Shown here one piece after another: positions 6,027-33,810 of a DNA stretch of 57,572 nt (position 1 is its first letter; each line of letters starts with the position of its first letter). The stretch spans positions 1 through 57,572 of the forward strand of contig PWJZ01000109.1 of the NCBI GenBank assembly GCA_003559855.1, written 5' to 3'. A model generated the notes under the pieces. That model was not told where the DNA came from, made no database searches, and worked only from the letters and a program-made list of their open reading frames with translations. The position numbers were made by a program, and so were the translations under genes. The stretch is from Bacteroidales bacterium (GTDB taxonomy: Bacteria; Bacteroidota; Bacteroidia; Bacteroidales; UBA7960).

Positions 6027-6164
6027 CATTTGTATTAAATGTAGTTAAACTCTTGTTCTCTTATAATATATATTAGTCAATATTTGCGTTATTTGTTATT
6101 AATCAATGGAATCCTCATACTTTATTAATCACCTTTTATGAACGTTAGTAAATGAAGATTTATT
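6027..6164 (-). repeat. Shared 5' module, copy 1 (short form)
   Basis: First of three related upstream modules (others at 30985 and 33595). The part next to the gene aligns base for base with copy 2, including the ATG at 6027-6029, the TTAA region and the TCTCTTAT block. The distal part shares TTAATCAATG, CCTCAT and TTTATTA, then CACCTTTT and TAAATGA. Compared with copy 2 it lacks about 70 internal bases. The rest of the 5986-6378 gap is AT-rich with nothing recognised. Confidence 0.65.
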
Positions 6165-6378
6165 CGGCAAATATTATTAATACTATTTATTTCAAAATTA
6201 ATAATTTTTTATAAGATAAGCGCTTCACCGACAATGTTTTTTACTTGCTATTATGCAGGGGGGTTCTTTTTCTGATATAAAAAACAACATTGAGCTATTT
6301 TATCCATTCAGGGTTGTTCATTATTTTATTATTGGAAATTTTTCAATTCAACGTTTTGTATCACGACAAACAGCTTAT

Positions 6379-9300
6379 TTAACGGATAAGGTACATTTTG
6401 CCAAAGCCCCTGTGAAAATATTTGTCGGCTTCTGTAGGTCGATGATCGATTTTTTCATCATTAATTTTTGCAATAACCCGGTACAGATATACTCCGTTAG
6501 CTAATCGTTGTCCGTAGCGGTCGGTTCCATCCCATGCATATTGCGTTTTATTTCGTCCGATATTTATGGGTCCTAGTTCTGTCAGGTCAATTTCACGCAC
6601 CACTTTCCCTGTGATTGTCATTATCTGTATCTTGAAATAGGTTGGTATTTCAGAGCCGGTAAGAGTAAATACAAAATGTGTTGCCGTTGAGAAAGGATTG
6701 GGATAATTGAAAACATTGGTTATTGTTGATTCTTCTATTACTTCGAAGCTTATGGAATAATCTTCTTCACCTGACAGGTTCATTGATGCATCGGTTGCCT
6801 GGACTATCAGGCGATATTTTCCCTCTTCACTGAGTTGTGGGTTGAATTGAACCTGGCACTGATTATTTGAATCGGTGGCGGGCGTAAATCTCATATTTTC
6901 CTGTCCGTTCTTTATAAAATAAACCCTTTCGGGTTCGTTTTGAATTGGTGACTGCAGGAACACCTTGACATAAGAAGTATCATCAAGTAAAAGGAACGGG
7001 TTTTCATCGCGCAGCGTAATTTGTATGAGGGGGTTTGGCGAAACAATATCGCCGTCGAGTATGTGAATACCGTCGAAAGTAACATCCAGTAAGGGATTTG
7101 TTTTGTCTTTTTCAACATAAAAACCAAGCTGTCCTATGTTATTGAAATGATATTGCTCCAATTGATCATTGCCGGGATTTACTTCAATCCAAAAGGTATT
7201 ATGACCGGGCAGATTACGGGTATCCACCTTTATTGTATCTATGAAAATATCACCTTCGGGATGAGTTTTTTGACGAGGGTAATCAACAGGATGAACTTTC
7301 CGGTCTTTATCAATAAGCCAGTAATTTACCAGCAGGCTGTCCATATCGTAATCGCCTATATTGTGAATAGCGGTAGAAAAAAGCAACTGTTGGCCCTCCA
7401 TAATTGTATCGGACTCAAATACAAAATGTTTTGACGGGTTTATTGCGGTTTCAGGAACTCCGTCATATACTACCTGCCATCTACGCATTTGCGCCGGTGT
7501 ATGGTTTATATCATCACGCATGAAGACGATAAGATTAAGGTAGGGATATTTTTCTGCATCAACGTGTTGGTGGAGATTATAGACGGACGACGAATCGGGC
7601 GGAAGGTTGTACAATAAGGTGTCGGTTTGACCTTGAATATCAACCCCTAACACATTCAACCATACGGAGTCGGTTTCAAGGCCGTCAAGATTTTCCTGGT
7701 GCCAGTGAAGCGAGTTCCACTTTTTTGCCGGACCGATAAGCTCCGATTTTATATAACCTTCTTTCCAATCAGTTTCAATAATATCTTCCAGTGTAATTGT
7801 CCAGGTTTTGTCCGGTCCTACCTTTTCTTTGGCACTTCCCGGAGTCGACCCTTTTTGTCCGAAAATTATATAAGGAGTATTGTTTGTCAGGTTTCTTATT
7901 TGCCCGCTGCCTATTGACTCAAAACCCTCGTATAGTTCTTCGGGGTAATCTTCGGCAAAATGGTTTTTATGGCTTAAAGCAAGGACATAATAGCTTTCAG
8001 GCACGGTATCAAGAAAAGCTATAATTTTATTTCTTGATTCTTCGGTATCTGTATGAAAATCAAAAGCATGATTGAGATAGTCATAACAATGTTCATTACC
8101 AAACTGCCCTTTGCCGTCTCCCTGATCTATGCTTCTCCAGGTTTCACCGGAAACAGGGTCAAAAACGGCAAACTTCATTGCACCCTCCCTGTAATAATCT
8201 GTGCAAAACCACCGGCTTTTGAGAATACCATTGACTTTATACCAGATCTCATCCCATGGTATGTTTGGATAATATCCTGTTTGAGCATGAATGTTTAAAA
8301 TGTTATTGACAAAATCCCATTGTTTTTTATCAGGTTCATAGGTTATATACTGATATTTATTATTTCCGAACTGGTCAAAATGCGCCTGACTCCAACCCCT
8401 TTTTCCGTTGATATACTGAAAGCTGCTTGACCGCCAGGAATATGAGCCATCATATATTGAATCGGGGCTTACTCTCCAGAAGTAAACCGTACTGTCTTCC
8501 GGCATTATTGGGGGGTTCCATTTGACTACTCCGCCGGTTTGGGTTATTTTTTGCCTTACCGGATTTTTAAAAGCTGCTGATGTATCAATTTCAAACACGT
8601 ATGTTAACTCATCTATGAAAGGGTTGCCGGTTGATGCTTTCAGAGTGACCTGTGGTTCAGGCACTATGGCATATCGATACGGATATACGGGAAGAATATC
8701 GGTAGAGCTTATCAGCAGATTTACCGTGGCAGAATTATTCAGCTCCGAAAGCTCATCAATTTCATTGTAGGCATCTAATACCGCTTTGAACTGATTCACG
8801 CCCACACCCCTTTCCCTGTCGATCTCAAACCCGAATATTACGGTATCCCTGTACATGGGCGCTGCGATACGTTTCATCCGGATGTCGGTGCTGCCGTCCG
8901 GGAAAGTCCTTGTAAGTTCAACAAATATTGAATCATGTATAGCTTTGCCTATGTTTGTTGCAATTACATTTACCTTAAAGCTGTCAAGTTCGGTTGACAC
9001 GTCTTCAGGAGTGAAGAAAATCCTTTCTGGTGTTATCATATAATCGGGTTTTGCCTGTGAGTTTATACGCAGCGCAGGATCACCATGAAGGGTCGTGTAC
9101 AGACATATATTCCTGATGTAAATATTGGTTGACTGAATTGCATTTATGGCCTTTTTTATGCTGATACCTACGGGTTTTCCATACTTATAGGAAGCAATGT
9201 TTTTAAAAAATTCGTTGGAATAAAGGTTCAGTTCCGTAGGGCCTGACAATGATGTTGAAGCCAGGTAACCAATAGTGCCTTTGTTTTCTATAAGCACAAA

Positions 9301-11349
9301 GGTTTCAGAAGAAGAGACCACATCTTTATCGAAAAGATCTCCTGCAAGGCAGGAGTTTGCCACGAGGAAAGGATATTTGCCGTAATTATTGTACTTTTCG
9401 GGGTGATCGATACTTATGTCAAATCCTATACCGGCTGCATGTCCGAAAAATGTCATTATGCTGACGCCATTATTTATAATATTTTTCAGCGAGTCGGAAT
9501 ATATTATTTGCATGGGTTCGGTGGAGCTTTTGAGGAATGTACGCACATAAGCTCCCATCAGGGTATCTTCCAGGATATTTTGATATTGCTTAAGATATCC
9601 TGCCAGGGTATTCTGCTCGCTTATGCTGCTTCCTCCGCCGAAGTGCAAAACATTTTTCATCCACTCTTCGGCATGTTGCTGTGCCGACTCATATTGAATC
9701 ATTTTATCAAGATAAATTTCAACATGTGAAGGTTCTTTGGCACTCAAACGACCTGTCGGTATAGCCGGTGTGTAAAGCTCATCGGTTATACCTGCCGTTA
9801 TCAGTATATCAGACGGAGGATCACCAAAAGAGACCACTTTCGTATTGTTGAACAGATCGCTGTTTTTTCGGTAATCCCGTGCTTTATATGCTTTACCGAC
9901 GAGGAACAACTTTCCTGGCGGCTCAGCATAATTCTCAATAAGATATCTTGTGAAATTTCTCAGCGCCAAAGGATGTTTTCTTATTCCATAGGAAAACTGA
10001 TCATACAGCCCGGCTTCGTCAACCAACAATACTTTATACCCTGTTGCATTACGGTATTCCTTGTAAGCCTGGGATGCTGCCATCAACGAACTGTGAGTTA
10101 CCAAAAGAAAATCGGAATTGACATTTTCGGCTGATATGAAGTCATTAAACTTACCCGGTTCAGGAGATTTTTCATTCACGGCAGTAATTACGCTAACGTA
10201 TTTTATATTGCTCTCAGAGGTTATATAGCATTTTCTTTCCTTGTCCGGATCGGGTAATAAAGCTTTGAAGGTTTGGTTTTCCCTAACCACCAAAATTTTA
10301 TTGTATGAAGTCAAATCCCAGATCCAGACTTCATCTTGTTCGTCGGCGGTAAAATTGCTCATACTAAGCAGAGTTTTGTTTTCTTCCGATTCAGGAACAT
10401 TCATAAGTCTGTAATCACTTCCGCCAAGATTGTAAGTATGCGGATATTTTACTGAAATATAGGCAATAGTATTACGACCGGCACCATCAAGGTCAACAGA
10501 TGTAAAAACGAACGGGGTATTTTCAGGGTCTAATGATGTTGCCGGAACCTTATACTCAAACCGCAAAAATTTGTGCCCGTAATAGGTTGTATCTATATTA
10601 ACATTTGCAAAGCTGATCTGCATTTGGTGGTCTTGCTTATTTACGCCGGCAACAGCAAGCTCAATTTCCGCATCGGGTCCGTTTGTGTAAACATTTGAGG
10701 TTGGAATATTTTTTGTGCGGAAAGTTCCCTGGTTAAAATAATTGTCAAACCAACCCTGTACTCTGGTATATTCCGGGCTGGTCACACCATAGTTATTGGT
10801 TTCACCTGCAAAATAGCGGTTTGTATAATCGTGTCTTGAATAATGCCAAAAGTATGCTGAAGCCGTGTATCCCGCAAAGTTGGTGTCGGTTTCAACGTTG
10901 AATCTTTTATTATCAAGCAGGTTATTCCATGTAATGTAATATGTTGCCGTATCGGTAAACAAGCTGTAATTGCAGTTGGGCTGATCTTCCGGGTTTTTAT
11001 ACAGGTATTTGTCAAACCAACCGTCATTTCCTTCGGCATAGAATTCTATGTAATCTCCCGGCTGAAAAACGCCTGAACTTTCATTTTTAACAAATATAGG
11101 TTGTTCTTCACCGCGAGCAAATATCTGGAAGTTTCTCGGATCAAATGTACCCAAAGGAACGCCCGCAGCCAGCAGCGTATTATAATCTATCCGGTAGATA
11201 CCCTGCTCATGTACAGCGATCCTGTAATATTGCCGGTTATAATCTATCCATTCGTTGCCAAAGGGCCTGGCTATGGAGCTCACAGGCAAAAAAGATAATA
11301 ACAAAAAAATTATCGTGAAAAATGGTCTAATTATATTTATATTTTTCAT
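6379..11349 (-). CDS. porU2: C25-family (gingipain-like) cysteine peptidase, type IX secretion sortase PorU2-like
   Basis: Very large exported protein (1656 residues) with a signal peptide (about residues 1-27). The peptidase C25 domain spans roughly residues 410-760. The catalytic His637 lies in MTFFGHAAGIGFD and Cys667 in VANSCLAGDLF. Several beta-sandwich, CARDB-like repeats follow. The end, from about residue 1560, has the FlgD-like form YPNPF ... WDGTDRYGQRLANGVYLYRV, typical of type IX cargo tails. PorU, the sortase of this system, is a C25 protease of about 1100-1200 residues; the much longer form beside a PorV homologue fits the class called PorU2. It follows the PorV-like gene on the same strand with a 114-base gap. 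It could instead be a secreted gingipain-like protease. Confidence 0.85.
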   Translation of the reverse strand: MKNINIIRPFFTIIFLLLSFLPVSSIARPFGNEWIDYNRQYYRIAVHEQGIYRIDYNTLLAAGVPLGTFDPRNFQIFARGEEQPIFVKNESSGVFQPGDYIEFYAEGNDGWFDKYLYKNPEDQPNCNYSLFTDTATYYITWNNLLDNKRFNVETDTNFAGYTASAYFWHYSRHDYTNRYFAGETNNYGVTSPEYTRVQGWFDNYFNQGTFRTKNIPTSNVYTNGPDAEIELAVAGVNKQDHQMQISFANVNIDTTYYGHKFLRFEYKVPATSLDPENTPFVFTSVDLDGAGRNTIAYISVKYPHTYNLGGSDYRLMNVPESEENKTLLSMSNFTADEQDEVWIWDLTSYNKILVVRENQTFKALLPDPDKERKCYITSESNIKYVSVITAVNEKSPEPGKFNDFISAENVNSDFLLVTHSSLMAASQAYKEYRNATGYKVLLVDEAGLYDQFSYGIRKHPLALRNFTRYLIENYAEPPGKLFLVGKAYKARDYRKNSDLFNNTKVVSFGDPPSDILITAGITDELYTPAIPTGRLSAKEPSHVEIYLDKMIQYESAQQHAEEWMKNVLHFGGGSSISEQNTLAGYLKQYQNILEDTLMGAYVRTFLKSSTEPMQIIYSDSLKNIINNGVSIMTFFGHAAGIGFDISIDHPEKYNNYGKYPFLVANSCLAGDLFDKDVVSSSETFVLIENKGTIGYLASTSLSGPTELNLYSNEFFKNIASYKYGKPVGISIKKAINAIQSTNIYIRNICLYTTLHGDPALRINSQAKPDYMITPERIFFTPEDVSTELDSFKVNVIATNIGKAIHDSIFVELTRTFPDGSTDIRMKRIAAPMYRDTVIFGFEIDRERGVGVNQFKAVLDAYNEIDELSELNNSATVNLLISSTDILPVYPYRYAIVPEPQVTLKASTGNPFIDELTYVFEIDTSAAFKNPVRQKITQTGGVVKWNPPIMPEDSTVYFWRVSPDSIYDGSYSWRSSSFQYINGKRGWSQAHFDQFGNNKYQYITYEPDKKQWDFVNNILNIHAQTGYYPNIPWDEIWYKVNGILKSRWFCTDYYREGAMKFAVFDPVSGETWRSIDQGDGKGQFGNEHCYDYLNHAFDFHTDTEESRNKIIAFLDTVPESYYVLALSHKNHFAEDYPEELYEGFESIGSGQIRNLTNNTPYIIFGQKGSTPGSAKEKVGPDKTWTITLEDIIETDWKEGYIKSELIGPAKKWNSLHWHQENLDGLETDSVWLNVLGVDIQGQTDTLLYNLPPDSSSVYNLHQHVDAEKYPYLNLIVFMRDDINHTPAQMRRWQVVYDGVPETAINPSKHFVFESDTIMEGQQLLFSTAIHNIGDYDMDSLLVNYWLIDKDRKVHPVDYPRQKTHPEGDIFIDTIKVDTRNLPGHNTFWIEVNPGNDQLEQYHFNNIGQLGFYVEKDKTNPLLDVTFDGIHILDGDIVSPNPLIQITLRDENPFLLLDDTSYVKVFLQSPIQNEPERVYFIKNGQENMRFTPATDSNNQCQVQFNPQLSEEGKYRLIVQATDASMNLSGEEDYSISFEVIEESTITNVFNYPNPFSTATHFVFTLTGSEIPTYFKIQIMTITGKVVREIDLTELGPINIGRNKTQYAWDGTDRYGQRLANGVYLYRVIAKINDEKIDHRPTEADKYFHRGFGKMYLIR

Positions 11350-11463
11350 CCGGACAATAATTTATTTTAAATCGCTCAGACTAAACCCGCATTTATAACA
11401 TTCAGGTATGTGTAAAAATATTTTTTCATGCCCTTTTAATTTGTTTATAAACCATACCTTATT

Positions 11464-12561
11464 TTAATCATCATTCTCTACCGGGCTAATATTAAGCCTT
11501 AATGAAAATATATTTGAATATAGTGCGATAGAGCTATTCCCCACATTAGTGAGTGCATAGTCTATAGCCAGATTATCCCTTATTACAACACCCACCCCTA
11601 TATTAGGCTGGAAGCTTCTGATTCTTTCACCTTTTGTGTTATAGTATTGCTGTATATTTCCCACCCCTGTTCGTAAAAAGACAAAACCGCCGTAATTAAT
11701 TTCCATTCCCAAACAAGGTTCCATGCTGAATGGATCGCTTTTAACAAGCACATTTCTTTTGCCGTCGCTGGTAATTATCATATCGAGCGACAGCAGCACA
11801 GAAAAGTTTTCAAACAGGTGTAAATTCTTTGCCGTACCTAATACAAATCTTGGTAAAGTAATTTCCGTTGAGCTTACGGGGATTTCGTTACCTGTAAGTT
11901 CAAATGCTTCTCTCATTCTCTCGTCAAGGTCATAATTCCATGCGTTGAATGTGGTTGTAATATCTTTGCCTGAAAATCCGAATTTCCAGTTATTATATGA
12001 GTATTGTGCTCCGACGTCTATACCGAAACCCCAGGCACTTGCAAAATTTCCGGCTGTACGGCGTATCACTTTAACATTAACACCTGCTTTGAGGTTATCT
12101 AATTGCGGTAACATTCTGGCATATGATAACAAAAATCCGTTATCAGCTGCTGAAAATGATCTTATACGGTCGTAGTTTATGTTTCCTTCTTCATCTATCA
12201 GCTCGGAAGTATCGGGGATATCATCAACGCCAAACCTGATATATGAAAATGCAAAGCTGCTGTACTTGTCGGTGTTGAAGGCAATAGCGCCGTAGTCATA
12301 GCTGGCAAGGCCGGCAAAATACTGGCTGTGCATAAGGGAAAGCTGAATATTGGATTCAATATAGATTAATCCGGCAGGATTCCAGTATCCGGCGGTCACA
12401 TCATTAGCCACAGCCACAAAACTGTTTGACATACCCAGTGCACGCGCACCGACACCAATATACATAAACTCATTACTGTGAACAGGCGTATTGGAGTACA
12501 ATATATTGTGTGAAAAAAGTGACAGAAATAAGGCTATGAATATTTTAACAGTTTTTTGCAT
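11464..12561 (-). CDS. porV2: PorV/PorQ-family outer-membrane beta-barrel (PorV2-like)
   Basis: Outer-membrane barrel of the FadL-like PorV/PorQ family, which in the type IX system shuttles cargo to the sortase PorU. The start at ATG 12561 gives MQKTVKIFIALFLSL, a good signal peptide, and 365 residues; the longer frame to 12669 adds a non-family extension. The family signature after the signal is clear: FMYIGVGARALGMSNSF, then ANDVTAGYWNPAGL. The end, SLRLNISP, fits a last beta strand. It lies just upstream of the C25 peptidase on the same strand and is probably in one unit with it, which supports a PorV2/PorU2 pair. Confidence 0.87.
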   Translation of the reverse strand: MQKTVKIFIALFLSLFSHNILYSNTPVHSNEFMYIGVGARALGMSNSFVAVANDVTAGYWNPAGLIYIESNIQLSLMHSQYFAGLASYDYGAIAFNTDKYSSFAFSYIRFGVDDIPDTSELIDEEGNINYDRIRSFSAADNGFLLSYARMLPQLDNLKAGVNVKVIRRTAGNFASAWGFGIDVGAQYSYNNWKFGFSGKDITTTFNAWNYDLDERMREAFELTGNEIPVSSTEITLPRFVLGTAKNLHLFENFSVLLSLDMIITSDGKRNVLVKSDPFSMEPCLGMEINYGGFVFLRTGVGNIQQYYNTKGERIRSFQPNIGVGVVIRDNLAIDYALTNVGNSSIALYSNIFSLRLNISPVENDD

Positions 12562-12885
12562 CCGGCAAATATGAAAGTAAAATGTTAAATTAGAATATCT
12601 GATAATATTCGTTTGTTGAAAGCAACAACTTGCAATCTTATACAAACTTTCGGAATGTAAAGATAACAAAAACGGTGAAATTTTGAATTAAATAGCGTTA
12701 TTATTCTGATGGTATTACATAAGAAATTTTTGTTCCCTAACGATTTGTATGGATAAAAATAATAATTTGTAGTTTATTGCAAACAAGGAATCATTAATCA
12801 ATAGATTTAATTTACTCCATTGCTAATGACAAAGGCCTCAGGGTATTAATCTTTTATTATTTTCATTAAAGTAAATAAACCGTTA

Positions 12886-14928
12886 TTAGTTTACCTGATT
12901 CAGATATCTTTCCAGCCAGTTATAAAGCTCATCATACCAGAATATTGAGTTTTGCGGTGTCAGTATCCAGTGGTTTTCGTCGGGATAATATACCAGTCGT
13001 GCATCGAGCCCCATATTTTTGTATATATTATATACGAGGAACGCGTGTGCGATGGGCACTCTGTAATCGAGCTCACCGTGTATTATAAGCATTGGCGATT
13101 TAAAGTTTTCAGCATAAGATGCGGGGCTGATTTTTTGCATTTGTTCGGTATTTTCCCATGGTGAACCGCCGTATTGGTATTCTCTGTTGGCTGAATAGTC
13201 GGAGGCGAATTGCAGGTTAAGGTCAAATACTCCGGCGTGATTAACCAGGGCTGCAAAGCGGTCGGTTTGTCCTGCTATCCAGCTTACCATATATCCGCCA
13301 TAGCTGCCGCCGGTAGCTGCCATACGGCTTCCGTCAATATAATCCTTTTGTTCCATATAATCAGCCGCCTTCATAATATCGCGGTAGGGCAGGTCGGCAT
13401 GGTTTCCGTGAATGGATATGGCAAAATCCTGTCCGAAACTGGTTGATCCATGGAAATTGGGCATAGCTACAACGTATCCCGGTGCGGCAAAAAGTTGGGC
13501 GTTCCAGCGATAATGCCACTGGTCACCAAAAATACCGTGAGGACCGCCATGTATCATAAATACCAGGGGATATTTTTCGTCGGGGTCAAAGCCGGGCGGA
13601 TAAATGACAAACATTTGAATGTCAACATCATTGGCGCCGGTGTATGTAATGTTGTCAACCTTGCCCAGCTCAAGCCCGGAAATAATCTCATCGTTGAAGC
13701 CGGTCAGCTTTGTCAGATTTCTGCCACGCTCATCTATGCTGTAAATCTCTATTGGCTTGTTCAACTCGTGCCGGGTAAATATAAGGTTACGCCGTCCGGC
13801 TCTGGTAACGTTATTGGCCGTGCCTCCACGATATATTTCGGTTACATCACCCCCTTCAGACGGTATTGAAAACAAAGATCTCATACCACGGTCTTCGGCG
13901 TGAAAATAGATCGTTTTGCCGTTGTCCGACCATATCCATTGCTGGCATGAAAGATCAATATCCTCTGTAATATTGTTGTGAGTTTTCTTGTTTCTGTTGA
14001 ACACAACCATTCGCACTTTATCGGCATAAAAGTGGATTATTTTTTGTTTTCCATAAAGGATATAGTTGCCGTCGTGGCTATATACAGGGTTTACATCGTT
14101 AGCAGGATTATCTTTTGTGATATTAATAATTTCTCCACTGCCATCGGTTTTTAACAAGTATATAGAGCTTTTCAACTGTTCGTAAGGCGGTTTTGTGCTG
14201 TTCATAGATACGGCTATTTCTTTTCCGTCGGGTGCTATATCATACGAAACGCCACCCATCATCCCGAAGAAGTTTGTTGTTTCGGGCATCAGGTCTTTAA
14301 CTTCCCTGCTTTCGAGGTTAACTTTAAAAAGCCGCGGGTAAAAGCCGTCGGTCAGCCATCTGTCCCAAAACCTGTAAACATTGTTTTCCGTAACTTTTGC
14401 AGTTACCTTACTTTCACGTTGTTTCTTAATTATTTCTTCGAGTTTATCGAAATCGCCTTCATAGTCGGGGTGAATGTTTGCGGCGAAAGCGATTTTTTCA
14501 CCATCCGGAAACCATTTTGGTGCGAATATTCCTATGGGCAGGTCGGTAATTTTCTCTGCTTCGCCGCCGCCTTTAAGGTCCAGCACATATAATTGTGCCG
14601 GGCCGTCATCTCTGCGGCTGGTAAAGGCAATTTTTTTCCCTTCCGGGCAGAATACCGGAGAACCGTCTTTACCGGTATAGGTTATCTGTCTTTTTTCTTT
14701 TGTATTGTTATTTAAAAGGTACAGATAGCCGGACCGGCTGTTTTCATCAATATCATAAGCAGTTACAGTAAAAACACTCCATTTGCCGTCAGGCGAGACC
14801 GAAGGCGCACTGACACGTTGCATGTTCCACATGTGCCCAGGAGTAAATGTTTCACCTGCCAATGCTGTGGCAGAAATTAAAATAGCTGTGATAAAAATGC
14901 TGAGTTTTATAAATCCAGTTTTGATCAT
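12886..14928 (-). CDS. S9-family peptidase (prolyl oligopeptidase/dipeptidyl aminopeptidase type)
   Basis: Serine peptidase of 680 residues with a signal peptide (about 1-24), so periplasmic or secreted. Residues about 35-400 form a beta-propeller of PD40/WD40-like blades (SVSPDGKWSVF, SPVFCPEGKKIAF, APKWFPDGEKIAF). The alpha/beta-hydrolase domain follows. The triad reads as Ser542 in GGSYGGYM, Asp621 in HGELDYRVP and His653 in DENHWI. Members of this group remove dipeptides or cut acyl peptides; the exact specificity is open. pdxJ lies upstream on the same strand. The gap of 324 bases to the PorV2-like gene shows nothing recognisable. Confidence 0.93.
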   Translation of the reverse strand: MIKTGFIKLSIFITAILISATALAGETFTPGHMWNMQRVSAPSVSPDGKWSVFTVTAYDIDENSRSGYLYLLNNNTKEKRQITYTGKDGSPVFCPEGKKIAFTSRRDDGPAQLYVLDLKGGGEAEKITDLPIGIFAPKWFPDGEKIAFAANIHPDYEGDFDKLEEIIKKQRESKVTAKVTENNVYRFWDRWLTDGFYPRLFKVNLESREVKDLMPETTNFFGMMGGVSYDIAPDGKEIAVSMNSTKPPYEQLKSSIYLLKTDGSGEIINITKDNPANDVNPVYSHDGNYILYGKQKIIHFYADKVRMVVFNRNKKTHNNITEDIDLSCQQWIWSDNGKTIYFHAEDRGMRSLFSIPSEGGDVTEIYRGGTANNVTRAGRRNLIFTRHELNKPIEIYSIDERGRNLTKLTGFNDEIISGLELGKVDNITYTGANDVDIQMFVIYPPGFDPDEKYPLVFMIHGGPHGIFGDQWHYRWNAQLFAAPGYVVAMPNFHGSTSFGQDFAISIHGNHADLPYRDIMKAADYMEQKDYIDGSRMAATGGSYGGYMVSWIAGQTDRFAALVNHAGVFDLNLQFASDYSANREYQYGGSPWENTEQMQKISPASYAENFKSPMLIIHGELDYRVPIAHAFLVYNIYKNMGLDARLVYYPDENHWILTPQNSIFWYDELYNWLERYLNQVN

Positions 14929-14961
14929 AGTTTATGTTTTTTATAAGTTTATAATAATATT

Positions 14962-16032: not shown

Positions 16033-16173
16033 AATAGGTGGTTGGTGAGCGATAAGCTGAGCGGTAATCATTAATTGACAATGATAACCCGTTACCTGTT
16101 ACCCATATCAGAATTGTTAATAAATTTGAAGGGCTGAATAATCACATTTCAGGTTTAATATATCAATTATGTT

Positions 16174-18172: not shown

Positions 18173-18192
18173 GTTTATGTTATTAAATGATC

Positions 18193-24265: not shown

Positions 24266-24356
24266 CTATTGTTTATGATTTTTATTAAAAATGAAACGAT
24301 TGCAAAGGTAAAAAAAGTTTTAAAAAACATTTCAGTCAGATATACAAACTGTTTTT

Positions 24357-25838: not shown

Positions 25839-25918
25839 GTTCTTGTAATTTTCTTTTTTGTTGAAACAGTTTGTTATTATAAGCTCCGTTAATGTATGTA
25901 TTAAACAGGTTATCCGTT

Positions 25919-25957
25919 GTTCGTTGCCCGTTACGCGTCACCCGTTACTTGTTATAA
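25919..25957. repeat. Dispersed CCCGTTAC repeat cluster
   Basis: Several overlapping copies of CCCGTTAC and CGTCACCCGTTAC between cysS and the patatin gene. The same words recur at 16087-16106, 29846-29870 and 51586-51630. Confidence 0.55.
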
Positions 25958-26731
25958 CTATTTCTTTATTCTATTATTTTCTCTCAGTACTCTTATGGTT
26001 TCTTCATATCCCATTTTATAAATTTCATTGCCGCTTGAAATATTCATCAAACCATACTGATCCAGTTTTTTCGGTTCAATGAACAATGAACAGCGATCTC
26101 TTCTTTCAATGATCCTTGTCCTGATTATAATATGAAATGTTCTTTCAGCTATCTGATACAAGTTTGAAAAGTTTTTTTCATATCCGATCGGATTAACGTT
26201 GACACCGATTATTTCTTCGCACAGTTCTTCGAGGGGTTCTATAGGAAAGTTTTCAATCATTCCGCCATCCGAATAATAGATATCATTTATTTTGACGGGG
26301 GGAAACAAGAACGGTATTGATGAGGATGCTTTTACGGCCATAACCAGATCGCCGGTATCGAATTTTACAAGTTTTGCATTGTTTATGTCAACTGCAAAAA
26401 CCAGCAATGGTATTTCAAGATCTTCGAAAAACTTAGCTTCGAGGTTTTTATTCAATCTTTTTGCAAACCCGGTCATTTCAATTAATCCCTGCTTAGGGAT
26501 TGTAAAGTGCAGGTAATGGAATATTTTGTGTTTTGTCAGGATATTAAGTATATCATCCGGTTTTTTCCCGTCGCAGTATAATGAACCAATAATAGCACCT
26601 GCACTAACGCCACTGACTATTTCCGGGAAAATGCCGTTATCATTCAAAGCCTTGAGAGCGCCAAGATGTGCAAACCCTCTTGTGCCTCCACCACTGAGGA
26701 CTATACCTGTTTTGTATTTTTTTTTGCTCAT
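25958..26731 (-). CDS. Patatin-like phospholipase (RssA/YchK type)
   Basis: Lipid acyl hydrolase with a Ser-Asp dyad. The oxyanion loop is LSGGGTRGFAHLGAL (residues 12-26), the nucleophile elbow is GVSAG with Ser43, and the second catalytic residue is Asp155 in YYSDGGMIENFP. The 257-residue length fits bacterial single-domain patatins. No signal peptide is seen, so it is likely cytoplasmic or loosely bound to the inner membrane. The substrate is not known. It lies downstream of a strong terminator that separates it from the TPR gene. Confidence 0.92.
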   Translation of the reverse strand: MSKKKYKTGIVLSGGGTRGFAHLGALKALNDNGIFPEIVSGVSAGAIIGSLYCDGKKPDDILNILTKHKIFHYLHFTIPKQGLIEMTGFAKRLNKNLEAKFFEDLEIPLLVFAVDINNAKLVKFDTGDLVMAVKASSSIPFLFPPVKINDIYYSDGGMIENFPIEPLEELCEEIIGVNVNPIGYEKNFSNLYQIAERTFHIIIRTRIIERRDRCSLFIEPKKLDQYGLMNISSGNEIYKMGYEETIRVLRENNRIKK

Positions 26732-26827
26732 CAGAATTAAATATTATTAAAGGCTGTTAGAATACTTTTTATGGTTTTCTGCATTTACAGTTTGGTATCA
26801 AAGCTAAAAAATTATTTCTATATAAAA

Positions 26828-26862
26828 AAAAGCAGGCTGACTTCGCTGAGCCGCCTGCTTTT
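26828..26862 (-). terminator. Rho-independent terminator after the TPR gene
   Basis: Arms 26828-26837 and 26853-26862 (AAAAGCAGGC and complement) pair over 10 bases. Read on the minus strand the stem runs into seven T. A second hairpin with TTGTTGGAAA arms lies at about 26883-26907, between this and the stop codon. Confidence 0.8.
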
Positions 26863-26914
26863 ATATAATTAGCAAAAATTATTTGTTGGAAACATTATTT
26901 TCCAACAACTTTTT

Positions 26915-27811
26915 TTAATCGACTATTTCCTGGAAGTCTGCAACATCGAAGTATTTTATAAATTCCCTGTCAATTCTTGCACATTCTTTATAGTCGGGAT
27001 CCAGACTTATTGCTTTTCTAAGATTTTCAAACAGCATTGTATTGTCTTCTCTTCTTGCCCCTATTATAGCGGTAAGATAAGCTACAGATGCTGTTTGATC
27101 TGCACATTCGAGGTTTGTCATAGCTGCCTGTTCATTTTTGTTCATCAGGTGTGCAAGAGAAACATTGTGAGTACAAGTACGTCCGGCGTATGATGATAAT
27201 GCGGCTTCATAATCGCCGATTATTATCATTATGTTACCCACGTTGTACCTGGTATCAATACCTTCACCCTGTGCAGCTTCATAATATGTCAGTGCATTTT
27301 CATGATCACCTTCCCAGGCGGCTATTACACCAAGATTATTCAATACATATCCTGTATTTGGTGCCAGCTCATTTGCCTTTTCAAGGTCTTCAGCAGCTTC
27401 TTCGACATTACCCAACTTCAGGTTAACATAAGCTGCATTGTTGAATCCCCTGTAATTTTGCGGGAAGAGTTCCTTGGCAGAGTTATAAATCTGAAGCTTA
27501 GTTTCAAGGTCTTCGGTTAGAGTAGCGGCATAGAGAAGTTCTTTTTCATCCAATTCTTCAGGATTGGTTGTTGAAAGAGTTGCGATCTCTTCATCGGTTT
27601 TCTTTGGCTCATAAGCGTTAACGACAATTTCGGCACGACGCAACGGTCTTAGGATCTCTTCAATCTCTTCATAAATAACCGCCATATCTTTAATTCTTCT
27701 TTCCCTTTCAGCCGGTGCAAGCTCTGAATTAATAACATTTGCAATAACATCCTTTTGTTCCAGAGCGGAAGCTTCGAGTTTTGTCATGAATCCCTCAAAG
27801 TCTTCACCCAT
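26915..27811 (-). CDS. TPR-containing C-terminal half of a split lipoprotein gene
   Basis: A 298-residue frame with tetratricopeptide-type helical pairs, clearest at FNNAAYVNLKLGNVEEAAED and GVIAAWEGDHENALTYYEAA. It has no signal peptide of its own. It is in the same reading frame as the lipoprotein at 27851-28651; only one TAG (27851-27853) separates them, and the 13 codons between TAG and this ATG are also coding-like (LEDYEKPEISVSA). So it is probably the second half of one 578-residue protein, with codon 267 being the stop. It could be made separately by reinitiation at 27811, in the cytoplasm, but that seems less likely. A terminator follows. Confidence 0.75.
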   Translation of the reverse strand: MGEDFEGFMTKLEASALEQKDVIANVINSELAPAERERRIKDMAVIYEEIEEILRPLRRAEIVVNAYEPKKTDEEIATLSTTNPEELDEKELLYAATLTEDLETKLQIYNSAKELFPQNYRGFNNAAYVNLKLGNVEEAAEDLEKANELAPNTGYVLNNLGVIAAWEGDHENALTYYEAAQGEGIDTRYNVGNIMIIIGDYEAALSSYAGRTCTHNVSLAHLMNKNEQAAMTNLECADQTASVAYLTAIIGARREDNTMLFENLRKAISLDPDYKECARIDREFIKYFDVADFQEIVD

Positions 27812-27850
27812 AGCAGAGACGCTAATTTCGGGCTTTTCATAATCTTCCAG

Positions 27851-28651
27851 CTATTTTTCGAGTTTTTCGAACTGACCTTTCCAATAGCGATGTCCTGTTG
27901 AAGCCCTGTTTTCAGAAAGTTCTTCATTAAAAGCAATTTCACCTTCGGGAGAAGCCCAGGCATTTAGTTCAACAGACCTGATTTCCCATCCTTTTTTAAG
28001 AAAGTCGTTCAGCTTCTCGACTTTTTTCTTGTTCTCTTCTATTTGGTTCAGGTCAAAGCGCCAGTTAAGATTATGACGCATGTAATCGAAATAGATGCTT
28101 GCGGATTTGGTTACTATAACTTCTTTTTCGTAACCATGAGGTGCCAGAGCCAACTCTTCGTCCTTATCAACTCTTTGAGAAGTGTTGATAACACCGTCGG
28201 CAACTTTTCTTTCGGGCAGCGTTTCCGCTTGGTCTTCACGACCTTCACGATAAATGAGTACATCCATAATCAGCTCCGATGCAAGCATCTCTTCGCTGAA
28301 TTCTATTTCACCCACAACCTCAAAAGCAGTCGTGCCCTGTCGTGCAATACGTATGCCTTCAACCTCGGTATTCTCACCACGCAAGACTACCGTCTCTAAA
28401 GCAGTTTCACCATCTTCATACTTTAATACCGGAGTAATTTCAACAACAGCCCTGCGGTGAAAGTACTTGTCGCCTACACGACCATCTACTTCCACGGCAA
28501 CAGTGCCACCGTGATTTTCTAGAGGATTCACCTTGGGTGTGTACCTAATACCTTCATCGTAATCCCTTACCATCTTATTAAGCCCACAACCCGCTAAAAT
28601 TGCTGCCGTAGCAAGCAAAACAACTGTAATTCTAATGTTAATTTTCTTCAT
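27851..28651 (-). CDS. Lipoprotein with OmpA-like C-terminal segment; N-terminal half of a gene cut by in-frame TAG
   Basis: The start at ATG 28651 gives MKKINIRITVVLLATAAILA followed by GC, with lipobox LAGC and lipid-bearing Cys at about residue 22. The body has beta-rich repeats and, near the end, an OmpA-like pattern (SVELNAWASPEGE, NEELSENRA). The frame stops at TAG 27851-27853 after 266 codons, then stays open for 312 more codons to 26915. The whole resembles Bacteroidota lipoproteins that join such a region to TPRs. TAG is a true stop elsewhere here (accA, mutB), so this is a nonsense mutation, a sequence error or a readthrough stop. No named function. Confidence 0.8.
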   Translation of the reverse strand: MKKINIRITVVLLATAAILAGCGLNKMVRDYDEGIRYTPKVNPLENHGGTVAVEVDGRVGDKYFHRRAVVEITPVLKYEDGETALETVVLRGENTEVEGIRIARQGTTAFEVVGEIEFSEEMLASELIMDVLIYREGREDQAETLPERKVADGVINTSQRVDKDEELALAPHGYEKEVIVTKSASIYFDYMRHNLNWRFDLNQIEENKKKVEKLNDFLKKGWEIRSVELNAWASPEGEIAFNEELSENRASTGHRYWKGQFEKLEK

Positions 28652-29211
28652 AGTTTTTTGCATATATTTGGTTAAATTGAAAAAATTAAAACTCAAAAAA
28701 CAACAAATTTTTTTTACAAATATATAAAAAAATGATGCTTTGCAAGTTTTTTTACGTTCCTTATATTATTGAGTTACCTATTTTTAATAATTTATTCTAT
28801 AGATATTGAAAAACCAACCTCATCGTTAAATCACGCCTTAACCGCTATAAGGTATTTGCACGAATTTTATTACAATAATAATAAAAATCTGTTTCAAAAA
28901 TACAAACTTATTTTAAACTTTTAGCTTTTATATTCATTTTTTTTTGATTTTTTTTGGGATAATGAGATATATGTCTCAAAATTTTAACCCTACCCCATTA
29001 AACATAGAGCCGTTATTGTCGTTCAATAAAATAAATTATAAAAACACCGAGAAATGACAGACTTTTAAGATCCACCGGTAAAAAGTAATCCAATCAATAT
29101 CCAAACATTTCAGATTAAAATCTTTTTGTTGTAAATTAACCTTATTTCTTTCGTAAATGTTATTTTTGACACCAGGTTATTATTCTATACATAATTAAAA
29201 TAATTACAATT
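28652..29211. other. Divergent intergenic region, AT-rich
   Basis: 560 bases between the split lipoprotein gene and the metallo-hydrolase gene, which point away from each other, so both promoters must lie here. A TGAGA/TCTCA pair flanks six bases near 28963-28978. No coding frame or RNA gene was recognised. Confidence 0.5.
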
Positions 29212-29859
29212 ATGCTGAAAATTAAAACATTTGTATTCAATCCCTTCCAGGTAAACACCTATTTACTGTATGATGATACGGGTCAATGCGTCATTATCGA
29301 CCCTGCGTGTTATGAAGATCCTGAAAAGCTCGCATTGGCTGATTTTGTCGGTAAAGAGGGGTTAAATCCTGTGCTAGCTTTGAATACCCATTGTCATATT
29401 GATCATATTCTTGGCAATAACTTTGTAACCGGAAAATTTTCCATTCCTTTGAAGGTACATAAGGATTCGATGGTATTTATAAAGAACGGTAAGGAATATG
29501 CCTTATCATTTGGTTTTGAGATTGAGGAAATAGCTATGCCTGATGGATTTATAGCAGAAGGGGATATCATAGAATTCGGCAACCGGCAGCTCAAGGTTAT
29601 ACATACGCCCGGTCATGCTGATGGCAGTATTTGTTTGTATGAACATAAGGCGGGTGTTTTGTTTTGCGGCGATGTCTTATTTAAATCCGGAATCGGAAGG
29701 ACAGATTTGCCCACCGGAAATTATGACAATCTTATTTCCAATATCAAGGAAAAGCTTATGCTCTTACCCGATGACGTGGTTGTATACCCCGGTCACGGAC
29801 CTGATACAACTATTGGAATGGAAAAAAGGAATAATCCTTTTTTATTGGGTAACTGGTAA
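29212..29859 (+). CDS. Metallo-beta-lactamase-fold hydrolase (glyoxalase II-like)
   Basis: Binuclear metal hydrolase of 215 residues. The metal motif THCHIDH (residues 59-65) is the H-x-H-x-DH signature, followed by HTPGHADGSICLY, the FCGDVLF Asp ligand, and VYPGHGPDTTI with the last His. The form matches small glyoxalase II-like (GloB/YcbL type) enzymes that cleave thioesters such as lactoylglutathione or related compounds. The substrate in this organism is unknown. The stop is followed directly by a dispersed GGTAACGGGCAACGAG repeat. Confidence 0.93.
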   Translation: MLKIKTFVFNPFQVNTYLLYDDTGQCVIIDPACYEDPEKLALADFVGKEGLNPVLALNTHCHIDHILGNNFVTGKFSIPLKVHKDSMVFIKNGKEYALSFGFEIEEIAMPDGFIAEGDIIEFGNRQLKVIHTPGHADGSICLYEHKAGVLFCGDVLFKSGIGRTDLPTGNYDNLISNIKEKLMLLPDDVVVYPGHGPDTTIGMEKRNNPFLLGNW

Positions 29860-29988
29860 CGGGCAACGAGTGTTCGAGCCTGACCGCACAGGTAAAGCAG
29901 ACTATTACAGCAATGCAGGCAATATTGTAGTTTAACCACTCAACAATTCAAAAAATGATCAATAACCGGCATCAAAAAAATTATGCAG

Positions 29989-30987
29989 TTAAATATACTT
30001 CCGCACGAATTCGACAATCTCAGTTTCATCAATCTCTTTTATACATTTAAAATGTTTTTTCGGACATTTTTTATATCCTATTTTGCTGCATGGGCGGCAT
30101 GAAAGGCTTTTCACTTCAGCAATTTTTGAAATTTCGACCGGTGATCCGTCAGGATAAAACGGGTACATACCAAACTCAGGTACTGTATTCCCCCATATTG
30201 AAACGACGGGTTTTCTGAAGGCTGCTGCTATATGCATCAGACCGGTATCATGAGTAATGACGGCCCTGGCTTTTCTTACAATGGAAGCCGATTGATTCAA
30301 GGAATATTTACCGCAACCGCTGTAAACGTTTTGCCCGCATGCCGCTCTAATACGGTTCCCAACAGCTTCATCATCCATCCCGCCCAAAAGGAAAACCGGG
30401 TAATTCACCTGATTGCATATCCTGATAATCTTTTCTTCCGCCATCTTTTTGGTATAATGCTTTCCGCCTATTACAAAAACCACATATCCCTTTTGCAACT
30501 TCACGGGGATTTTGTCATTGCTGATTTCCTCCGATCTTTCATAGAAGTGGTCTAACCCCTCACCATCATATTTCACATTGAGAAAATCGACGGTTTGCAT
30601 ATAACGGTCTGCTATATGTACATCCGGCAGATAATTTATATTGAAGTTTACCAGCAACCATTTCTGAATATTAAGCTTATAGAAAGAGTGTGCCGGTTTT
30701 TGCAGCAATAATTTAACCAAAGCCGAACGCAGGCTGTTATGAAGATCAATTATGTGATCATACTTTTGATGCTTTAATTCAGGCATTACATCACGCAGTT
30801 TATCCTTCATGGTTATTATTCTGTCTATGTATGGATTAGCCCGTAATATTGAACTGAATTTATCCTTTGTAAGATAGTGTAATTCAACATTTTCGCCCAG
30901 CTGTTTCTTTATGCACCTTACTACAGGCGTTGTAAGCACTATGTCGCCGATTGAGCTGAAACGTATTACCAGTAATTTGGTTTTCAT
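29989..30987 (-). CDS. Glycosyltransferase family 9 (heptosyltransferase-like)
   Basis: GT-B fold transferase that adds heptose or a related sugar to lipopolysaccharide core. It has 332 residues. The N-terminal loop RFSSIGDIVLTTPVVR is the family hallmark, and the donor-binding segment THDTGLMHIAAAFRKPVVSIWG lies near residue 245. A Cys-rich stretch, LSCRPCSKIGYKKCPKKHFKC, near residues 292-312 could bind metal. The start codon is part of a repeated upstream module that also precedes two other genes. It is probably linked to cell-surface sugar synthesis. Confidence 0.92.
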   Translation of the reverse strand: MKTKLLVIRFSSIGDIVLTTPVVRCIKKQLGENVELHYLTKDKFSSILRANPYIDRIITMKDKLRDVMPELKHQKYDHIIDLHNSLRSALVKLLLQKPAHSFYKLNIQKWLLVNFNINYLPDVHIADRYMQTVDFLNVKYDGEGLDHFYERSEEISNDKIPVKLQKGYVVFVIGGKHYTKKMAEEKIIRICNQVNYPVFLLGGMDDEAVGNRIRAACGQNVYSGCGKYSLNQSASIVRKARAVITHDTGLMHIAAAFRKPVVSIWGNTVPEFGMYPFYPDGSPVEISKIAEVKSLSCRPCSKIGYKKCPKKHFKCIKEIDETEIVEFVRKYI

Positions 30988-31195
30988 TCGTATAAAATAT
31001 ATTTAACGTTCTGATCTCTTATGATAATATATTTGTCAATGATGGTATTTATATTTCTTAATCAATGAAACCCTCATGTTTTATTACGCCTTTCGTTTCC
31101 CGTATGAACGGAAAGATCGTTCAGTAGTATTGTTCGCTGGATCGCTTCGCTACGTTCATCACCTTTTGTGAATGCCGGTAAATGAGAGTTTCATC
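30985..31195 (-). repeat. Shared 5' module, copy 2 (full form, includes the start codon)
   Basis: It spans the GT9 start codon (30985-30987), a promoter-like AT block, and an outer inverted pair: TGAAACCCTCAT at 31066-31077 and ATGAGAGTTTCA at 31182-31193, with one mismatch. The core between the arms is GC-richer (about 31085-31160). It aligns with copy 1 at 6027-6164, which lacks most of the core, and with copy 3 at 33595-33810. Confidence 0.7.
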
Positions 31196-31227
31196 AGTTT
31201 ATTATATTTTGGCAATGAATAAGAACA

Positions 31228-32700
31228 TTACAATTCCTCAAAACGTATATATATCATTTGTTCTTCAACAAAATCATAAAGCGTAAGTTTCCTTAATTCA
31301 TAGAAGCCTCTCCAGTAATTAAACAGAGCCATCAGATAATTTTGTGTTGCACGGTCTTTTTCCTGATAAGCTATGTTCAGGTCTAAAATGCCTATATTTC
31401 CTATCAGGAATCTTTGCCTTGTAACTTCATATCTTTTTGTCGCTATTGTATCGGCCTTGGCTGCTATTTCGAGCTGATCTTTGAGTCTGTTGAATTCAAG
31501 CACCCTGAGGTATATCTCATATTCAAAGTCGTTTAGTGCCTGGTCGATATTGGTATTTACAAGTTCCAGGTTTGATTCAGCCATTTTCACTTTACCTTTC
31601 GACACGCCCCAGTCAACTAAAGGTATTCGTATTCCAAAGACAAGTTGCTGCCTGTCAAGTGGCGATGAATATGCCTCTGCGAATTCATCACCCCTTTGTG
31701 TGAGCCCGTATAAAGCATAAAGATTTGCGTTAAAGCGGCTGTCGGCTTTGGCTCTGTGAACTTCGCTTTCTGCCTCAATTCTCTGCCTTTCAAAAGCAAG
31801 TAAATCAGAACGATTTGATTTTGCTTCAACCAATGCCTTTTGCGGATTGATTTTCAAATCGGGTACATGCTTTGGTGGTATCAATATGATCTCTTCATCA
31901 CCTTCCATTCCAAGGTATGACCGGAACCTGAATAGCGCTGCTTCACGATTTATTTCAGATTGCTCAAGGGCTGAGAGGGAATTAAGGTAATTAAGTTCCA
32001 TCTGCAACAATTCATTTTCGGCAATACGACCGAGCGAATAACGTCCTTTGGCAATACGATAGAGGGTGTCGTTATTGTTGAGGTCGGTTTTGTTGATCCC
32101 GATGTTGATCTGAGCCATCAAAAGATCAAAAAACAGACTGGTAGCCATTAAAGATATCCTTTCAAGATCTTCTATATACCTCTGACGTGCTTCCCTGTAT
32201 CGAACAGGTTCAATTTTCCTTTCCCATCGATAGGGGTTGTAAGCAAATACAGGTTGTTGTATACCGATATTTACAGGCGTTGACAGGTAGGAAGTTACCA
32301 ATTCATCTTCTTTGATCAGATCTATTCGCTGAAGACCGGAATTGACAAATATCTGACCACCCGTAAGCCCTATTGTTTGTGTTACCGAAAGATTTGAAGA
32401 AGATGTTGCAAGGCTTCTCTGAATAAATGCATCGCTTCCGTCGGGCAATGTTATAGCCGATATCGAACGATCCAAACTTGGAAGCGTAGCATCAAATGTA
32501 AGATGGGGCAGATATCCGGCCTGAAAAGACCTGTACTGCCAGTAACTGCCCCGGTACCTGTGTCTCGCCGCCAAAGCATCGGGCGACCTTTCACGTGCCT
32601 CCTTTACCACCGCTTCCAAAGTAAAATGCTTTACCGGTACCTTACTATATACCTCAATATGAAAAAATAAAATGACAATAAAAAAATAAAAAGTCTTCAT
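31228..32700 (-). CDS. TolC-family outer-membrane efflux protein
   Basis: Outer-membrane channel partner of export pumps, with 490 residues and a signal peptide (about 1-19). Two outer-membrane-factor repeats with long coiled helices are seen: DLLMAQINIGINKTDL ... RYSLGRIAENELLQMELNYL in the first half, and LLAFERQRIEAESEVHRAKA ... YEVTRQRFLIGNIGILDL in the second. This is the standard TolC layout. It may serve the HlyD/MacB-type pair at 38000-40974 or another pump. It sits between two glycosyltransferase genes on the same strand. Confidence 0.92.
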   Translation of the reverse strand: MKTFYFFIVILFFHIEVYSKVPVKHFTLEAVVKEARERSPDALAARHRYRGSYWQYRSFQAGYLPHLTFDATLPSLDRSISAITLPDGSDAFIQRSLATSSSNLSVTQTIGLTGGQIFVNSGLQRIDLIKEDELVTSYLSTPVNIGIQQPVFAYNPYRWERKIEPVRYREARQRYIEDLERISLMATSLFFDLLMAQINIGINKTDLNNNDTLYRIAKGRYSLGRIAENELLQMELNYLNSLSALEQSEINREAALFRFRSYLGMEGDEEIILIPPKHVPDLKINPQKALVEAKSNRSDLLAFERQRIEAESEVHRAKADSRFNANLYALYGLTQRGDEFAEAYSSPLDRQQLVFGIRIPLVDWGVSKGKVKMAESNLELVNTNIDQALNDFEYEIYLRVLEFNRLKDQLEIAAKADTIATKRYEVTRQRFLIGNIGILDLNIAYQEKDRATQNYLMALFNYWRGFYELRKLTLYDFVEEQMIYIRFEEL

Positions 32701-32819
32701 GACACGAAATGTTTATGATTTTATAATAATAACTTAACTTTTCGTACCCCTGACACTTGCCTTTAAGTGCAAATCCATAAATATAACAGTGAAATCAAAT
32801 AAATACAATACCTGAATGA

Positions 32820-33575
32820 TCATTCATTATGTGTTTCGTAAATCTTAAACTTAAACAATTTAATATTATGCAAAAAATGCATCAGACTGGTTTTGATGAC
32901 TCCAAACCCATAAATTATACTGTGCCTGAAATTTATCGTTGAAGCTTCCGGGAAATAATTTGCCGGGCAAGATATTTCGCCTATTTCATATCCTGCCATA
33001 AATACCTGGCTTATGACCTGATTGTCGAATATGAAACCGTTGGAATTAGCCCTGTAATTTATCTTCTCAAGCACTTCTCTTGAAAAAGCCCTGTAACCTG
33101 TATGATATTCGGATAACTTTTTGCTTAGAAGCATGTTTTGGAATAAGGTCAACATGCGGTTCGCAACATATTTATAGATTGGCATACCGCCTTTTCGTGC
33201 ACCCTTGCCCAGAATTCTCGAACCAAGTACAACCGGATATACATCATTGACAATCAAATATGACATTGCAGGGATTAACATTGGTGTATACTGATAATCA
33301 GGGTGAAGCATTATTACAATATCGGCTTTCAGCCGATTTATTGCATAATCATAACATGTTTTTTGATTGCCGCCATAACCAAGATTTGTCGCATGACAAA
33401 TTATATGCTTTATTCCAAGGCTTTTTGCTATTTCTACGGTATTATCATTACTGGCATCATCTACAACAACAACCTCATCCACAAAACTTTCCGGAATATT
33501 TTTGTAAGTTTCCCTTAAGGTGAGCGCAGCATTATAGGCCGGCATTACAACGACTATTTTTTTTCCGCAAAGCAT
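32820..33575 (-). CDS. Glycosyltransferase family 2 (dolichol-phosphate-mannose-synthase-like)
   Basis: GT-A fold transferase of 251 residues. It opens KKIVVVMPAYNAALTL, with nucleotide-sugar contacts in DEVVVVDDASNDNT and ADIVIMLHPDYQY (the DxD-like site is reduced to HPD). LSEYHTGYRAFSREVLEKI matches the acceptor-loop region of DPM1-like enzymes. There are no C-terminal membrane helices, so it is probably soluble or peripheral. The donor and acceptor are unknown, though a lipid-linked sugar is likely. A shared 5' module lies directly upstream (33595-33810). Confidence 0.92.
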   Translation of the reverse strand: MLCGKKIVVVMPAYNAALTLRETYKNIPESFVDEVVVVDDASNDNTVEIAKSLGIKHIICHATNLGYGGNQKTCYDYAINRLKADIVIMLHPDYQYTPMLIPAMSYLIVNDVYPVVLGSRILGKGARKGGMPIYKYVANRMLTLFQNMLLSKKLSEYHTGYRAFSREVLEKINYRANSNGFIFDNQVISQVFMAGYEIGEISCPANYFPEASTINFRHSIIYGFGVIKTSLMHFLHNIKLFKFKIYETHNE

Positions 33576-33594
33576 GTTGTCCTGAATAAATATT

Positions 33595-33810
33595 TATTCG
33601 TATAAAATGTATTTAAGGTTCTGATTTTCAATAATAGAAATATATATTTAGCAATTTAGGCGTTGTTAGTTCTTAACCACGAAATGCTTATACCTTATTA
33701 CTCCCTTTGTTTACCGTATTAACGGGCAGACCGGTTACTCACAATGCGCGTGAGGCCGCTTAGCAAGGTTGATCTGCTTTTGTAAACATTATTTGATAAG
33801 GGTTTCATTA
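33595..33810 (-). repeat. Shared 5' module, copy 3
   Basis: It aligns with copy 2 over the ATTCGTATAAAAT block (33596-33608) and ATTTAAGGTTCTGAT (33611-33625), and over the palindromic part with CTTATTAC, CCGTAT, AACGG, CTTTTGT and GGGTTTCAT (33691-33808). In this copy the base triplet aligned with the GT9 start is not ATG; the GT2 start is about 22 bases nearer its own gene. The remaining stretch to 34219 is AT-rich with no gene seen. Confidence 0.62.

Follow-up and report, generated by a model that had tools for sequence, protein, structure and literature searches.

A short, probably mobile element of Bacteroidales with copies placed mostly at gene start codons

Introduction

As a rule, mobile elements either keep clear of genes or insert into them at some cost. 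Here we describe a short repeat (the element) of which three copies lie in a 57,572-nt stretch of Bacteroidales DNA (the window; contig PWJZ01000109.1, assembly GCA_003559855.1), and which in the genome that contains this window (the own genome, G000) often ends exactly at the start codon of a gene. The nearest report concerns the TAACTGA direct repeats of Beggiatoaceae and some Bacteroidetes, which in one genome lie mostly within several nucleotides upstream of a start codon, occur also in ribosomal-protein operons and share no common downstream function; mobility was considered and a regulator-binding role was proposed (PMC4679880). The element resembles them in these three features of position, operon context and lack of common function, but they are tandem units of 7 nt and, as far as the accessible part of that report goes, no hairpin, defined ends or empty sites are mentioned for them.

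A terminal hairpin combined with a short fixed target at one end links the element to the IS200/IS605-derived elements, PATEs and the IS605 stem-loops of Borrelia, according to the available portions of their descriptions (PMC6006769, PMC2775950, PMC3119063). It differs from this group in its large loop and start-codon target, and no Y1 transposase gene bearing its ends was found; the Borrelia stem-loops, which are linked to lipoprotein genes, sit at gene 3′ ends. Among miniature inverted-repeat transposable elements (MITEs), Correia, ERIC and the BrickBuilt sequences of Porphyromonas are like the element short, multicopy and intergenic, able to alter expression, and Correia likewise lies predominantly just upstream of genes; unlike the element they have terminal inverted repeats, target duplications when young and, in several cases, promoters, and the accessible text of these two sources contains no mention of exact start-codon placement (PMC10969869, PMC4596501); in the first, a review of prokaryotic MITEs, not one word of the main text begins with 'start'. 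For the hairpin repeats REP and REPIN, transposition in trans by a host enzyme, RAYT, is assumed, and mobilisation in trans is also our guess for the element, which differs from the 20–40 bp REPs and their GTAG-like tag in size and sequence, judging from the available excerpts (PMC3116915, PMC8266576, PMC3733652); the Y1 genes of the own genome stand beside another repeat. An element inserting at start codons was not found described in the open-access literature, as represented largely by titles and the opening lines of abstracts. The element belongs beside the known MITEs, REPINs and IS605-derived elements, from which its start-codon targeting sets it apart.

Copies at start codons

Copies with common ends are dispersed through the genome, abut the pentamer ATGAA, are in excess at start codons, have empty counterparts in relatives, have inserted into themselves in tandem and have multiplied in a burst in one species of a second genus (G015). 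On this basis the element is probably a non-autonomous mobile element of 126–272 bp with the target ATGAA(A), used mostly at gene start codons.

As a BLAST query, the second window copy gave 29 matches in the own genome at E <= 1, where some copies were hit in more than one piece. The gene-proximal 100 nt, modelled from sequence alone (R1, with ATGAAA in the last seven columns), matched the 2.97-Mb own genome 96 times at E <= 1, and 79 of these matches reach E <= 1e-3. In the extracted loci (numbered L), ATG follows directly on 59 of 79 copies, and in 42 of the 59 it opens an open reading frame (ORF) of at least 60 aa. A second pass placed 43 of 75 own-genome copies at ORF starts (rpmJ, with 38 aa, included), three in tandem and 29 elsewhere, and every copy at an ORF start is in sense orientation to its gene. 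The 29 others comprise nine without a recognised distal end, 17 that are intergenic by a joined-flank test and three with an open frame of 111–203 codons across the joint. Twenty copies have a recognised distal end and lie neither at a start nor in tandem; for 14 of them an ORF of 100 aa or more begins on the same strand within 400 nt downstream, and for the other six none does, a count that has no random control.

The downstream genes have no common theme. When 30 of the 43 ORFs were scanned, 28 had a Pfam match, with functions in translation, cofactor, cell-wall and sugar metabolism and transport; they include ribosomal proteins L29, L30 and L36, a class II (D, K, N) tRNA synthetase, HPPK, NAD synthase, an ATP-grasp/CoA-ligase, a dTDP-sugar epimerase, a nucleotidyltransferase, a D-Ala-D-Ala carboxypeptidase and MlaD. 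The own-genome contigs C94, C100, C38 and C97 end inside or beside near-identical copies, some of the AAGCACCTGATATTAAATATTTG subfamily, and the true copy number is therefore probably higher.

ATGAA at the junction

Because the ATG might have been an artefact of R1, junctions were re-read from the distal end with a second model (R2) and the proximal profiles were cut before the ATG. Read from that end, ATGAA lies within 2 nt at 61 of 72 copies (nine more distal ends, for which no proximal end was recognised, are left out): all 12 in genomes G001–G003, 27 of 28 in G015 and 22 of 32 in the own genome, where percentages lean upward since the last columns of R1 contain ATGAAA. The base that follows ATGAA is A in 48 of 54 cases. 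In G015, where 20 of the matches listed were taken in and six weaker ones left out, loci were collected by the distal end alone, and 19 of the 20 copies kept (two were dropped) have ATGAA; 11 of these 20 stand at starts, seven elsewhere and two in tandem (p 0.002). Without the four copies used for building the profile, the figures are 15 of 16 with ATGAA and 8 start, 7 other and 1 tandem (p 0.019). One spurious reverse-strand match (L191) is contained in the broader G015 counts (18 start, 9 other, 3 tandem) and absent from this distal-end set.

Under a simple ORF model, the window holds ATGAA at 11 gene starts, 44 other intergenic sites and 220 intragenic sites. In the pooled set, an ORF is opened by 42 of the 66 copies outside tandems, compared with 11 of the 55 start-plus-intergenic ATGAA sites (Fisher p 1.4e-6). 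The odds of a start are 6–7 times background in this set and in the 20 G015 copies, and 4.6 times in the strictest subset. Set beside the positions of the copies, these counts show that gene bodies are avoided and that starts are favoured over ATGAA sites elsewhere between genes.

An ordinary MITE moved by a DDE transposase, with a 5-bp ATGAA duplication and a start bias that reflects the survival of harmless insertions, would account for the size (under ~500 bp), copy number, AT-richness, non-coding nature and mostly intergenic position of the copies, as well as for ATGAA on both sides and for the ATAAA that flanks two copies on both sides. We nevertheless regard it as unlikely: the outer ends have no terminal inverted repeats, other intergenic ATGAA sites should be equally harmless and yet are used so much less than starts, and in 15 of the 17 copies that have a 3′ pentamer other than ATGAA and a known 5′ end, the two pentamers differ.

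Mobility

Insertions are found in the S10-spc-alpha operon of the own genome, where over an 11-kb stretch no gap is longer than 200 nt except those before rpmC, rpmD and rpmJ, and each of these three holds an element that ends at ATGAAA. The rpmD (S5-L30) gap measures 241 nt compared with 17–108 nt in 11 relatives, the rpmJ (IF1-L36) gap 256 nt compared with 24–96 nt in 11 relatives, and the rpmC (L16-L29) gap 262 nt compared with 126–223 nt in ten. At all three places the relatives have the flanking genes adjacent, an ATG start and no element; a profile search of the ribosomal-operon loci gave matches in the own genome only, with none in 80 named S5 neighbourhoods. Insertion at the element's own first ATGAA has produced head-to-tail copies at six loci (L024, L044, L088, L134, L146 and L186). 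The G015 copies, 137 or 126 nt long, have a median pairwise identity of 0.937 (with one spurious row in the set), which points to a recent burst in this species of another genus. Empty sites in relatives, tandem fusions and near-identical copies together establish that the element is mobile.

Some insertions look old. The own genome shares an element before homologous genes with G003 (77% identical DNA), before an MTTB gene with G002, and before an NAD synthase gene with G015, the last with different subfamilies; shared ancestry and repeated insertion at the same start codon would look alike here.

The element has a narrow distribution. The proximal model found matches in five of 39 genomes searched, the own one included, and the distal model in five of 29 family genomes, namely four of the genus and G015, while G010, a congener of G015, has none. 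In a draw from the order, made with stricter filters and evidently containing no other carriers, the distal model matched one of 295 genomes, and in a draw from the phylum the exact hairpin pattern matched one of 395, in both cases the own genome. No match was found in phages (distant BLAST with one G015 copy), plasmids (distant BLAST with copy 2) or viral contigs (one exact pattern).

Architecture of the element

Read along the gene, the element begins with ATGAAACCCTCAT, then ACAAAAG..ATGAAC, followed by a middle part that varies and that short forms lack. After the middle, AAGCATGAGGGTTCCAT pairs with the first 13 nt, and some 80 AT-rich nucleotides, ending TTTTATACRA in the main subfamily, stop before ATGAA. 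The distal hairpin has 12 pairs, and in a chosen set of 23 short-form copies every one of them is conserved in 19 or more; the hairpin loop ranges from ~30 nt in short forms to more than 100 nt in long ones, and the second arm ends inside the element, by ~60 nt in short forms and ~130 nt in copy 2. No inverted repeats connect the two outer ends, no arm is present at the gene-proximal end and no consensus stem is predicted there. Proximal ends differ strongly between subfamilies, and some copies have diverged and lost parts. In the opposite orientation TTCAT adjoins the left end and the hairpin closes the other end with a 3′ foot TTTCAT; the target pentamer thus equals the last bases of the element and is able to pair with the 5′ foot of the hairpin.

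A mini-ORF from the element's first ATG was rejected as a conserved leader peptide: it ends after nine codons in eight of 28 G015 copies and its lengths scatter elsewhere, and as it is so often cut short no coding constraint is seen. The antisense promoter TATATTTG of the main subfamily was, by eye and with no count, not seen in the G015 subfamily. At L018, L095 and L094, simple tandem tracts (TTACCCGTTACCCG, AACTTTTAACTTTT and AGTGAGAAAGTGAG) stand in place of the element middle, between ends or upstream of the proximal end, and look like another class of dispersed repeat.

Promoter or leader

Putative mobile promoters are homologous upstream regions that stand before non-homologous genes. 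The element differs from them in its defined ends and target, and in that a promoter-like box of native origin often lies upstream of it. The initial annotation had proposed an expression module that puts scattered genes under one control, and an element that carries its own promoter would fit the sense orientation of every copy at an ORF start. It would also fit the loss of distal rather than gene-side parts, since a recognised distal end is missing for 26 of the 75 proximal ends in the own genome (16 of the 26 stand at ORF starts) and a proximal end for nine of 81 distal ends, some of these cut by contig ends; the detection models are of unequal length and this is no fair comparison. The Bacteroidota-type −7 box, TAnnTTTG, was counted for 67 copies: 11 of their native upstream flanks contain it, compared with 3.9% in shuffles, and just one of their 3′ ends does (five of the 72 copies, with short flanks or a neighbouring element, were left out). 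Insertions within ribosomal operons need no promoter, the proximal ends differ strongly between subfamilies, and the genes listed after the copies share no function. A shared promoter for all copies is weakly supported, given the native boxes upstream and the lack of a common function downstream, and we consider a mobile promoter improbable.

With the box in upstream flanks and hardly in element ends, the native promoter seems to stay upstream of the element in some cases. The element at rpmC is preceded by a box of the type TATCTTTGCA, which relatives have as well. In the same L16-L29 gap, several relatives (L168–L175, partly L163) share a similar leader before rpmC (TTTGCAGCCTTTTTGCAGG ... 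CGCAGCCGTTACCTGTC) with a promoter-like box; in the seven loci searched, no Rfam family reached the gathering cut-off.

An element inserted immediately 5′ of ATGAA would leave the gene's own start codon intact and would come to lie between it and the native promoter and leader. Transcripts would then run through the element, which would become a replacement 5′ untranslated region (UTR) and translation-initiation region, and its proximal end would have to support initiation. An intact start codon and an upstream promoter would explain why the element is tolerated inside ribosomal-protein operons. The element may thus, from the arrangement of the sequence, serve as the new leader of its gene.

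A conserved hairpin in a 5′ UTR position is also what a regulatory leader family, r-protein-like or riboswitch-like, kept by selection and spread through duplicated upstream regions, would display. This we hold to be very improbable, as Rfam gave no match at the gathering cut-off in the window or in seven operon loci, no regulon emerges, the copies diverge and lose parts, and the empty sites are precise. Two sub-threshold Rfam matches, both at L186, were all that was found of a known RNA family.

A possible mobilising enzyme

The asymmetric ends, a hairpin foot that equals the target, and an element that is its own target lead us to guess that a hairpin-reading single-strand transposase of the HUH/Y1 type (IS200/IS605-like) moves the element in trans. 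Pairing of the target and element end with the 5′ foot of the hairpin would then act as guide and cleavage sequences do in IS200/IS605. Insertion 3′ of a fixed target, a feature of that family, would correspond to the TTCAT at the same 61 of 72 junctions, where an equal 5-bp duplication is also possible. In IS200/IS605, subterminal hairpins of 20–25 nt in all stand at both ends and guide rules have been set out, according to the part of the source available (PMC6006769).

Several points weigh against the reading of the element as a whole, as a mobile element with an ATGAA target. About one third of copies lie away from an ORF start, many own-genome loci were collected with R1, and the ATGAA background comes from one 57-kb window and an ORF-based gene model. 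Two of the 17 variant copies (L064 and L089) carry ATAAA on both sides, and a 5-bp ATGAA duplication cannot be told apart from a fixed element end. Against the guess of a Y1 transposase, the hairpin loop is larger than IS200/IS605 hairpins. Y1 genes (IS200/IS605, RAYT) were rejected as cis partners: among the two of the own genome and the 15 of five relatives, the element's ends occur at none of the 17 loci (up to 1.5 kb on each side, in six incomplete genomes). A Y1 gene is present in all five element-bearing family genomes and in 15 of 24 others (p 0.15).

The two own-genome Y1 genes lie ~4 kb apart on contig C66 (L030 1200–2110 and L031 1000–1400), each beside a short repeat of its own (e.g. 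CCGCATCGCGGCGAAAGTATGGTAGCC in L030) that is unrelated to the element. Long autonomous copies were sought as well; the extracted loci, with flanks of mostly 1.5 kb in incomplete genomes, hold no pair of ends more than ~280 bp apart except a weak 494-bp pair (L111). L137, a candidate element with an internal ORF, is really a 5′-truncated copy after an ORF that reads, with no family search made, as 4-alpha-glucanotransferase-like.

RNA-mediated (retro) insertion that seeks the start sites of mRNAs would agree with the sense orientation at starts, with L137, truncated at its 5′ side with an intact 3′ end, and with copies that have a proximal end only. Truncation may equally be a later deletion, and a reverse transcriptase partner was rejected, as G000 and G002 have no RVT_1 match despite many copies in both; we give this route hardly any credence.

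The three window copies

The three window regions align with one another and share one orientation, as the initial annotation had stated, with similarity far above chance (copy 2 against its best other copy, E 7.1e-22). The palindrome arms, the shorter core in copy 1 and the ATG after copies 1 and 2 were likewise correctly seen, and the view of an amplified, mobile module in front of scattered genes finds support in the 79 genome-wide matches and, as to copies away from genes, in the 43 of 75 exactly at an ORF start and the ORF near 14 of 20 others. Of the three copies, all described as standing directly upstream of minus-strand genes, only copy 2 exactly abuts the start of a long ORF (Table 1). 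The ATG abutting copy 1 opens just 20 codons, and the next ORF, of 135 aa and with no match in a Pfam scan, begins 44 nt further on. Copy 3 abuts ATAAAT, by inference a decayed ATGAA, and the GT2 gene starts 22 nt downstream. The repeat protein once placed behind copy 1 lies upstream of that copy and shows no sign of repeats; this 1656-aa protein matches Peptidase_C25 and ILEI, with a FlgD_ig match below cut-off, and presumably resembles a PorU or gingipain-type secretion protease.

Table 1. Window positions of the element copies, their parts and the adjoining genes
Feature	Position	Strand	Remarks
ORF beyond copy 1	5578..5985	-	135 aa; start at 5985
ATG abutting copy 1	6027..6029	-	
Copy 1, short form, 134 nt	6030..6163	-	proximal-model E 3.7e-20; distal-end E 2.2e-6
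Large gene upstream of copy 1	6379..11349	-	Peptidase_C25
GT9 gene	29989..30987	-	PF01075
GT9 start codon	30985..30987	-	first bases of target ATGAA; abutted by copy 2
Copy 2, long form, 207 nt	30988..31194	-	proximal-model E 6.5e-21; distal-end E 2.1e-9
Copy 2, proximal hairpin arm	31065..31077	-	ATGAGGGTTTCAT
Copy 2, distal hairpin arm	31182..31194	-	ATGAAACTCTCAT; also element 5′ end
GT2 gene	32820..33575	-	PF00535
Copy 3, long form, 211 nt	33598..33808	-	proximal-model E 2.9e-17; distal-end E 4.2e-9

Implications

More tentatively, the element may be selfish and seek out start codons in their own right, with target recognition beyond the 5-mer (e.g. exposed initiation regions, R-loops or mRNA) and a portable initiation region that replaces the host's; we think this possible but doubtful. 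If true, a start-seeking element could enter essential operons without damage to them and gradually exchange the 5′ UTRs of a genome. By landing at start codons, an element can insert harmlessly even where the genome is compact, and it would replace the leaders of essential genes, those of ribosomal proteins included. Regulatory rewiring by transposition becomes directly testable, and a mobilising enzyme with specificity for ATGAA would be a new kind of targeting.

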